Positions 15,754 through 55,303 of a DNA stretch of 64,000 nucleotides are shown piece by piece. Origin of the DNA: Limisphaerales bacterium (GTDB lineage Bacteria; Verrucomicrobiota; Verrucomicrobiia; Limisphaerales; SXTU01); contig WRPG01000002.1 of assembly GCA_009773355.1 (NCBI GenBank), positions 128,391-192,390 on the forward strand, in the 5' to 3' direction. The position numbers were made by a program, and so were the translations under genes. Within the stretch, counting starts at the first letter, position 1, and the number at the start of each line of letters is the position of its first letter. The notes beneath the pieces were generated by a model. It had not been told where the DNA came from and did no database searches. It saw only the letters and a program-made list of their open reading frames with translations.

Positions 15754-16698
15754 ATGACGCTCCAGCCCGCCAGTCTTGCCGACCTCTCCCGGCTGCTCGC
15801 CGACTGCCACGCTGCGAAGCGCCCGATCACGTCCGTTGACCTCGCCGCCCTCGCCGCCGTCCGAGAATACACTCCAGAGGACATGACCGTGACTGTGGAG
15901 GGGGGGATGAACTTGGCCGAGCTGCAAGGCCAGCTCGCCGCGCGCGGCCAGTGGCTCCCGATAGACCCGCCCCACGCCGACCGCGTGACCATCCGCCAGC
16001 TCCTCTCCGAAAACCTCTCCGGCCCCCGGCGCTGCGGTTTCGGGACCATTCGCGAGCACCTCATCGGACTGGAAGCGGTGCTCGCGGACGGCCGCGTCAC
16101 GCACTCTGGCGGCAAAGTCGTGAAGAATGTCGCCGGCTACGACCTTCTGAAACTCTTTGTCGGCGCGCGGGACGGCCTCGGCATCATCAGCGCCGCGACC
16201 TTCAAGCTCCGCCCGTTGCCGGAGCAGGAAGTCGTCTTGAGCGCGCAGTTCAAATCGCTCTCTGCCGCTTGGGTCGCCGTCCAAGCCATGCTCGATTCTC
16301 CACTCACCCCCGTCATCCTTGATCTCCACAACCTCGCTGCTGACGGCTCCGCCTCCGATGCCTTCACCGCCCGTCTCGGTTTCGCCGGCACCCGCGAGGA
16401 AGTCGAGTGGCAGCGCGGCCGTGCCGGCGACTTGCAGTCGCCGTCCGCCGCGCCCGACTGCGAGCAAGCCTTCTGGTCCGCCGACGCTCCCGTTCACACC
16501 GAATCCGTCCTCCCGAGCAAACTTGACGAAGCGCTTTCCACACTCGGCTCCGTGCCCTTCATCGCCCGCGCCGCCAACGGCATCATCCACCATCGCGGCG
16601 TTCCGCTGCCGCGCTCCGCGTCATCCGCCGGCGCGCTGGCGCAACGCCTGAAAGACACCTTCGACCCGCACCACATCCTCCCCGCCGCGCCGCTGTGA
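15754..16698 (+). CDS. glcE: glycolate oxidase subunit GlcE-like (FAD-binding)
   Basis: GlcE is one of three subunits of the membrane-associated glycolate/D-lactate oxidase. The protein (314 residues) has the FAD_binding_4 features TVTVEGGMNLAELQGQLAARGQ, LSGPRRCGFGTIREHLIG, VKNVAGYDLLKLFVGARDGLGI and a C-terminal PFIARAANGIIH. Its N-terminal part is shorter than in E. coli. The stop overlaps the start of glcF by four bases. A repeat unit lies in frame at residues about 223-233 (peptide RAGDLQSPS). The glcD subunit gene, normally first in the operon, is not upstream: a sensor kinase gene ends 12 bases before. GlcD must be elsewhere or the pair works with another FAD subunit. Confidence 0.85.
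   Translation: MTLQPASLADLSRLLADCHAAKRPITSVDLAALAAVREYTPEDMTVTVEGGMNLAELQGQLAARGQWLPIDPPHADRVTIRQLLSENLSGPRRCGFGTIREHLIGLEAVLADGRVTHSGGKVVKNVAGYDLLKLFVGARDGLGIISAATFKLRPLPEQEVVLSAQFKSLSAAWVAVQAMLDSPLTPVILDLHNLAADGSASDAFTARLGFAGTREEVEWQRGRAGDLQSPSAAPDCEQAFWSADAPVHTESVLPSKLDEALSTLGSVPFIARAANGIIHHRGVPLPRSASSAGALAQRLKDTFDPHHILPAAPL
16420..16450. repeat. REP-like unit, family E, inside glcE
   Basis: The sequence CGTGCCGG leads into a perfect stem-loop CGGCGACT-TGC-AGTCGCCG at 16425-16443. It is a single half of the paired element seen at 17193-17248 and 55207-55303. It keeps the glcE frame and encodes RAGDLQSPS. Confidence 0.8.
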
Positions 16699-18014
16699 CT
16701 GTCGCCTCCGAACCATTCCTCGACGAGCAGACCGCGCTCGCCTGCGTCCACTGCGGCCTCTGCCTCGGCTCGTGCCCGACCTATCTGGAGACGGGCAACG
16801 AGAATGATTCTCCGCGCGGGCGCATCTACCTCATGCGCGCCGTGCAGGACGGCCGCCTCCCGCTCGGCGACACCGCCGTCCGGCACATTGACACCTGTCT
16901 CGGCTGCCGCGCCTGCGAAGCGGCCTGTCCCAGTGGCGTCCACTACGGCGAGCTGCTCGAAGCCACCCGCGACCACATCGAACGTCACCATCACCGCTCA
17001 CCCTTTCAGAACTTCCTCCGCCGCGTCGTCATCGAACGGATCTTCCCGCATCCGCTGCGGATGAAACTGGCCCTGCTTCCTGCCCGCCTGCTCAAGCGCG
17101 CCGGCGCGGAGCATCTGTTTCCCCAGTTCGTGCAGGACTCGCTCGCCCTGCTTCCGGCCGAGATGAACGAAGGTCACTTGCCGGAACTCTCCCGTGCCGG
17201 CGATTTGCAATCGCCGTCGGGGGGCGGCGGTTACAAACCGCCGGCACGGCCGCGCGGCCGCGTCGGCTTCATCCGGGGCTGCGTGATGAACGTCATGTTC
17301 GGGCGCACGAACGAGCACTCCATCCGCCTCTTGAACCGCGCGGGCTATGACGTGGTCACGCCCCGTGATCAAGGCTGTTGCGGCGCGCTCCACGCCCACG
17401 GCGGCAATCTGGCCGCCGCCCGCGAGGCCGCCCGCGCGAACCTCGCCGCCTTCGCCCGCGAGCCGCTCGACGCCATTATCATCAACGCCGCCGGCTGCGG
17501 CTCCACGCTCAAGGAATACAACCACCTGCTCGCCGCCGACCCGCGCGCCGCCGCCTTCAGCGCGAAAGTGAAAGACCTCTCCGAGTTTCTTGTGGCTGCC
17601 GGCTTTCAATCGGCAATCGGCAATCGGCGATCGGCAATCAAAGTGACCTTTCACGACGCCTGCCACCTCGCGCATGCCCAGCGCATCACGCATCCGCCCC
17701 GTCTGCTGGTCAAAGCCGTCGCCGGTGCAAACTACGTCGAGATGCCGGAGTCCGATGTCTGCTGCGGCAGCGCCGGCAGCTACAACCTCACTGAGCCGGA
17801 GATGGCCGAACGCCTCCAGCGGCGGAAGGTCGAAAACATCCTCCGCACCGGCGCGACCTGCGTCGTCACCACCAACCCCGGCTGCCTCCTACAAATGCGC
17901 GCCGGCCTGGACGCGGCTGGTGCCACCCACATCGAGACCTTGCACATCGCGGACTTTCTGGAACGCAGCCTCGCCTGCTCCGCACCGGTGATGACGAGAG
18001 GCGGCTTCAACTGA
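16695..18014 (+). CDS. glcF: glycolate oxidase iron-sulfur subunit GlcF-like
   Basis: GlcF passes electrons from the flavin subunits to the quinone pool. The 439-residue protein has two 4Fe-4S ferredoxin clusters near the N-terminus (CVHCGLCLGSCPTY and CLGCRACEAACPSGVHY) and two CCG domains, each ending in a Cys-Cys-Gly (DQGCCGALHAHGG and SDVCCGSAGSYN). Other conserved parts are GFIRGCVMNVMF and FHDACHLAHAQ. Two repeats have been taken into the reading frame: a paired hairpin element at residues about 167-185, just before GRVGFIRG, and a heptamer array at about 305-315, just before KVTFHDACH. Both lie at domain borders. The gene starts with GTG four bases before the end of glcE, implying coupled translation. 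Confidence 0.9.
   Translation: MTVASEPFLDEQTALACVHCGLCLGSCPTYLETGNENDSPRGRIYLMRAVQDGRLPLGDTAVRHIDTCLGCRACEAACPSGVHYGELLEATRDHIERHHHRSPFQNFLRRVVIERIFPHPLRMKLALLPARLLKRAGAEHLFPQFVQDSLALLPAEMNEGHLPELSRAGDLQSPSGGGGYKPPARPRGRVGFIRGCVMNVMFGRTNEHSIRLLNRAGYDVVTPRDQGCCGALHAHGGNLAAAREAARANLAAFAREPLDAIIINAAGCGSTLKEYNHLLAADPRAAAFSAKVKDLSEFLVAAGFQSAIGNRRSAIKVTFHDACHLAHAQRITHPPRLLVKAVAGANYVEMPESDVCCGSAGSYNLTEPEMAERLQRRKVENILRTGATCVVTTNPGCLLQMRAGLDAAGATHIETLHIADFLERSLACSAPVMTRGGFN
17193..17248. repeat. REPIN-like element, family E, in frame in glcF
   Basis: Outer arms CGTGCCGG (17193-17200) and CCGGCACG (17241-17248) enclose two perfect hairpins, CGGCGATT-TGC-AATCGCCG (17198-17216) and CGGCGGTT-ACA-AACCGCCG (17225-17243). 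Read inward from each end the halves differ by a paired A-T to G-C change. The reading frame of glcF passes through. Confidence 0.85.
17608..17639. repeat. heptamer array, family D, in frame in glcF
   Basis: Four 7-bp steps plus four bases: AATCGGC three times, GATCGGC, AATC. It encodes a short peptide (QSAIGNRRSAI) placed between two conserved GlcF segments. No inverted arm is seen nearby. Confidence 0.75.
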
Positions 18015-55206: not shown

Positions 55207-55303
55207 CGTGCCGGTGACTTGCAGTCGCCGTCCGCAGGGGCGCCTTTGAAGCAGCGGCACAGGGCAGCCAACCCGCAACGCGGCGACTGCAAGTCGCCGG
55301 CAC
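55207..55303. repeat. REPIN-like element, family E, after glgC
   Basis: Outer arms GTGCCGG (55208-55214) and CCGGCAC (55297-55303) with hairpins CGGTGACT-TGC-AGTCGCCG (55212-55230) and CGGCGACT-GCA-AGTCGCCG (55281-55299). It is the longer-spaced version of the element found in frame in glcF and is placed just after the glgC stop. Confidence 0.85.

Follow-up and report, generated by a model that had tools for sequence, protein, structure and literature searches.

A probably mobile two-hairpin repeat of one Verrucomicrobia genus lies in frame in glcE, glcF and other genes

Introduction

The REPINs of Pseudomonas fluorescens are inverted doublets of REP sequences that go with a RAYT; their common units are 71 and 110 bp, and they were described from extragenic space (PMC3116915). 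Palindromic repeats that lie in frame inside genes are a kind known from Rickettsia and from intragenic REPs (PMC3733652). The intragenic REPs, of GTAG and CGTC types, include examples from O. terrae, a member of the Verrucomicrobia, and their dimers encode 20–30 amino acids; they are placed near gene 3' ends, with uvrB among the hosts (R. conorii), and unrelated families were seen at one site in a single case, recB of two Xanthomonas, the sites being different otherwise (PMC3733652). CGTC REPs have CGTC at one end, an 8–9 bp stem with A/T first pairs and a loop of 4–5. Template switching yields compensated changes without selection (PMC8794818).

The first-pass annotation of a 64,000-nt stretch of a Limisphaerales genome (the window) had proposed that one hairpin element, family E, is inserted in frame in both glcE and glcF, and that this DNA is the source of a peptide, RAGDLQSPS, shared by the two proteins. 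Here family E is compared with the systems described above.

Results

The glcE-like and glcF-like genes overlap by 4 nt and, as the first-pass annotation had it, both carry the same hairpin DNA (Table 1). The first 27 nt of the two elements are identical at 25 positions, and RAGDLQSPS is encoded in the own frame of each gene. Folding agreed with the proposal that the element is complete in glcF and halved in glcE. In glcF, two hairpins form an inverted repeat of 58 nt (DNA fold −27.6 kcal/mol, z −5.3), which encodes GlcF residues 167–185, RAGDLQSPSGGGGYKPPAR; the glcE element is one hairpin, with z −0.9 over the 46 nt folded, yet its 7-bp stem is perfect. RAGDLQSPS is missing from the GlcE and GlcF of other families, which rules it out as a conserved peptide of these proteins. 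Its conservation in distant bacteria had been named as the observation that would speak against an origin in the DNA element, and that claim stands. Coincidence or shared GlcE/GlcF ancestry, for which no supporting point was found, is refuted by this absence and by the pattern counts given below. The gene whose stop codon the third copy in Table 1 follows reads like glucose-1-phosphate adenylyltransferase, and the copy is typical of a class that hugs stop codons.

Table 1. Family E elements and their glc host genes in the window.
Feature	Position	Strand	Basis or detail
glcE-like gene (FAD-binding subunit), with half element	15754..16698	+	ORF; Pfam FAD_binding_4, E 3.4e-19
Half family E element, CCGTGCCGGCGACTTGCAGTCGCCGTCCG	16419..16447	+	Hairpin 16426-16442; RAGDLQSPS = GlcE residues 223-231
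glcF-like gene (Fe-S subunit), with full element	16695..18014	+	ORF; Pfam Fer4 and CCG domains
Full family E element	17192..17249	+	Hairpins 17199-17215 and 17226-17242; outer arms CCGTGCC/GGCACGG
Full 96-nt family E element, intergenic	55208..55303	+	Just behind stop codon

The claim of in-frame insertion in both genes held for glcF only. In three congeners (G003, G004 and G005) the glcF site is a short native linker with no element, and the glcF copy is therefore, as judged from predicted proteins, a true in-frame insertion. Other repeats or inserts lie in the same place in G002 and G006–G010, and some of these sit between GTGCC/GGCAC ends and look like leftovers of an older family E copy. 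The inserted residues fall in the linker that joins the Fe-S domain to the first CCG domain, and pLDDT is <50 at residues 173–177 of a GlcF model in which most of the domains are well predicted. In GlcE, the distance from EVEWQ to EQAFW is 16 residues, against 17 in the distant homologues L049 and L050. The half element thus adds no net length, which argues for a remnant or a replacement and not a clean insertion. CTC-type repeats are found at the glcE site in G002, G004, G009 and G010. A second, different repeat insertion was observed in glcF at window positions 17608–17640, where AATCGGCAATCGGCAATCGGCGATCGGCAAT encodes the peptide SAIGNRRSAI before the second CCG domain, and the same peptide type occurs in an AddA-like protein of the present genome.

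Family E is dispersed through the genome. Exact matches to the arm core GCCGGCGAYNTGCARTCGCC number 118 in 6.16 Mb, and the reversed control has 0; together with the pattern matches in the window (5 observed, 0.36 expected), these counts rule out a chance likeness of the glcE and glcF stretches. Reading of 100 of the 118 matches, with copies fetched by place, gave 82 distinct copies, 72 of which have both arms, so that family E is, in the manner of REPs and REPINs, a high-copy dispersed palindrome found chiefly as inverted doublets. Measured from GTGCC to GGCAC, the main size classes are 66–73 nt and 93–96 nt, and the glcF copy, at 54 nt, is shorter than either. The arms have the consensus CCC-GTGCC-GGCGRYT-TGC-ARYCGCC-G, followed mostly by TC or CC, and their outer edge is sharp; the consensus forms a 7-bp stem that begins with G-C and has a loop of 3. 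About half of the arms have CGTC after the stem, while a GTAG-type tag is not characteristic of the family, GTAG or CTAC being near just 17 of 154 arms and the outer sequence being GTGCC. Collapsed single-hairpin forms of ∼27–33 nt were seen at orthologous sites (L239, L240, L283, L312 and L235), as if the spacer and one arm had been deleted.

The arm core is present in nine of the ten other genomes of the genus, with 7–45 matches each. Among 47 genomes from other families of the order it was found in G012 (one match) and G046 (two) only, and in a phylum-wide sample of 388 genomes it was found in one, the present genome. The named records with a family E arm come from uncultured Verrucomicrobia, and several seem to bear a wrong label: those filed as Klebsiella pneumoniae, Akkermansia muciniphila or Proteobacteria (L135, L139 and others) carry family E and are probably mislabelled MAGs of this genus.

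These counts bear on the idea that template switching or a glcE–glcF duplication formed both window palindromes in situ, with no mobile family. The genes are neighbours in one operon, and in G002 (L045, G002:C130) glcE and glcF share a rare variant of the unrelated CCCTCTCC-type repeat, two of the three exact copies in that genome, which suggests local copying within the operon. However, the stems differ in type between the glcE and glcF copies in the window (GAC/GTC and GAT/ATC), which excludes recent copying of one from the other, and the 118 genome-wide matches contradict a local origin as the sole cause. Such an origin is very improbable, although local copying could still contribute.

Judged by codon-position GC on both sides, 25 of the 82 copies lie inside genes. 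The hosts of in-frame copies include UvrB, ArgE-like, AddA and MFS types (these names, like CheA-like and EamA, are a reading of the sequences). The in-gene copies keep the frame and mostly read RAGDLQSPS...GDCKSPAR, and in 19 of 24 the left arm is in the RAGDLQSP frame (p 5e-6). The consensus arm, read as sequence, is free of stops in all frames, and the frame bias is therefore more than stop avoidance. In predicted translations the copies interrupt unrelated proteins in frame, and orthologues have the site empty, as described for intragenic palindromic elements of the RPE kind. The same peptide in UvrB-, AddA-, MFS- and HEAT/cytochrome-type proteins also bears out the earlier proposal that it comes from a dispersed DNA element and not from common descent or function. 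One AddA-like gene (L131, G000:C132) holds three family E insertions together with ARTPTSA-, QVGHLRS- and IGNRQSAI-type repeats in a single open frame.

The preference for one frame would also be expected if the peptide were a functional module, such as a tag for binding or export, that has spread from protein to protein. This is a most unlikely explanation: the hosts are membrane, repair and metabolic proteins, in congeners the peptide is missing or a different sequence stands at that codon, the GlcF model predicts the insert with low confidence, and the frame bias equally fits tolerance of a hydrophilic linker. The copies inside genes would be read as a tolerated linker peptide. Outside genes, 29 of 57 copies have a gene's stop codon no more than 30 nt away, mostly at 1–6 nt, compared with 0.8% of random positions of the same loci.

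Sixteen sites were compared between orthologues within the genus, and the presence of family E at them is species-specific. In the ArgE-like gene, G000, G001 and G002 carry family E; G003, G004, G006, G009 and G010 are empty; and at the same codon G005 has a GGCAGGCATCCTGCCTGCC repeat and G007 a GACTCCGTCGAGCCCC repeat. The UvrB site holds family E in G000, G004 and G007 and other inserts in G005 and G006, and is empty in G001, G008, G009 and G010. In gene e61, family E (G000), a palindromic CTCC...GGGGGAGAGG type (G002), a GCGGACGCCCACGTCCGC type (G007) and another insert (G005) are found, with little or nothing in seven genomes. The HEAT/cytochrome and further genes likewise have both filled and empty orthologous sites. 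Of the repeats at shared sites, the GCGGACGCCCACGTCCGC repeat, with between 1 and 88 copies in a genome, and the CCCTCTCC-type repeat, with up to 28, are dispersed, whereas for the GACTCCGTCGAGCCCC repeat a long exact pattern matches just 2–3 copies in two genomes, so that its status as a family is weaker. At L105, a GCGGACG repeat has family E between its arms, in the order GGAGCGCGGACGCCCACGTCCGC, family E, GCGGACGTGGGCGTCCGCGCTCC.

The relatives thus carry unrelated hairpin repeats at the same codons, and these gene positions are probably repeatedly used landing sites. At least six extra residues were present at the site in 77 of 118 orthologue comparisons, family E copies counted in, against 13 insertions of at least six residues in all in the flanks (∼180 amino acids each), a contrast to which naturally variable loops contribute. 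Support in the species tree is low (0.17) at the node of the present genome, and gains and losses are therefore not firmly countable. Tolerance alone might not be the cause of this reuse: it is conceivable, if rather doubtful, that unrelated palindromic families are steered to the same codons of orthologues by a shared target, such as CGTGCC, or by older palindromes that act as landing pads, and that hypervariable linkers are built by successive families.

The stems of family E covary. One variable pair is A-T in 118 arms, G-C in 33 and other in 3, with a search pattern that favours A-T in one arm; another is C-G in 88, T-A in 61 and other in 5. Between orthologous arms, which were copied by hand and whose comparisons are not independent, 32 pair differences are matched by a compensating change on the other side and 3 lack one, where ∼9 double differences would be expected with independently varying sides. 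This covariation, together with the half of the extragenic copies that stand directly behind stop codons, would fit RNA hairpins that act in mRNA stability, transcription end or translation pausing, the in-gene copies being by-products or regulatory hairpins. However, template switching gives the same compensation without selection (PMC8794818), many orthologous sites contain either nothing or an unrelated repeat, and the stem has decayed at some sites, such as the right arm in UvrB and the MFS copy of G002. A function in RNA is consequently an unlikely account of the family. The compensated stems could stem from template switching, exchange between copies or selection on RNA, and covarying stems in such repeats need not imply RNA function.

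No transposase gene was found beside family E: at the 16 Y1/RAYT loci in the 11 genomes of the genus (draft assemblies), no copy lies within 1.5 kb, and a RAYT flanked by family E is thereby rejected at these loci. Three Y1 transposase genes belong to the present genome (L070, L071 and L072). Two of them, L071 and L072, look like RAYTs amid other repeats (peptides SAGVQPA/APVSNRR and STLECR/HWNVEL), which may be their own REPs. No parent insertion sequence of family E was found, and no target duplication was resolved by eye at the empty sites. In IS200/IS605-type systems the outer tag equals the target. A CGTGCC-like native sequence is present at two empty sites, in EamA and in e61 of G004 (CGTGCTGGCGAT), and these two cases, the second possibly a deletion remnant, hint that the outer tag of family E may likewise equal its target.

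Discussion

Family E, of one Verrucomicrobia genus, is probably a mobile but non-autonomous palindromic repeat that resembles REPINs, with two hairpin arms inverted around a spacer. Its residence in frame inside genes is real and well supported. As to its movement, we infer that it would spread as hairpin DNA via an HUH (Y1) transposase that either acts in trans or has since been lost. Insertions would survive only where the protein tolerates them, so that the same few loops would be hit repeatedly, sometimes inside an older repeat, and the arms would be kept palindromic by template-switch correction or by exchange between copies. In the window, the glcF element would be whole, and glcE would retain half of one.

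If the predicted reading frames are taken at face value, family E illustrates how dispersed DNA may add peptide to proteins in frame. The filled sites also offer a natural map of where housekeeping proteins (UvrB-, AddA-, ArgE-like and GlcF) tolerate insertions, backed by several independent repeat families, and a system for asking whether repeats target loops or merely survive in loops.

Of the known systems, REPINs are resembled in the two short inverted hairpin repeats, the dominance of doublets and the conserved arms around a looser spacer, and two unit sizes occur in both (about 70 and 96 nt in family E, 71 and 110 bp in REPINs; PMC3116915). Unlike REPINs, family E showed no RAYT neighbour at the loci examined, has GTGCC as its outer sequence and places nearly one-third of the copies read in genes. 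Membership in REP/REPIN proper is not claimed, because neither the tag nor a cognate transposase was found when both were sought. Like MITEs, family E is short and non-autonomous and has inverted repeats, and it differs from them in that no target duplication was resolved by eye and no parent insertion sequence was found. Compared by description, it shares with the Rickettsia palindromic elements a palindromic build and in-frame residence in unrelated proteins as extra linkers, whereas its lineage, two-hairpin form and two size classes are different. With the intragenic REPs it has in common palindromes in genes, placement near gene 3' ends and uvrB as a host (PMC3733652). It lacks the GTAG tag of the GTAG REPs, its CGTC stands after the stem and not as a 5' head, and its stem and loop do not match those of CGTC REPs. 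The literature found covers intragenic REPs and template switching, with no description of family E, which is new as a family. What is unusual is the reuse of the same codons: unrelated families occupy one codon across species at family E sites, compared with the single recB case among intragenic REPs (PMC3733652).
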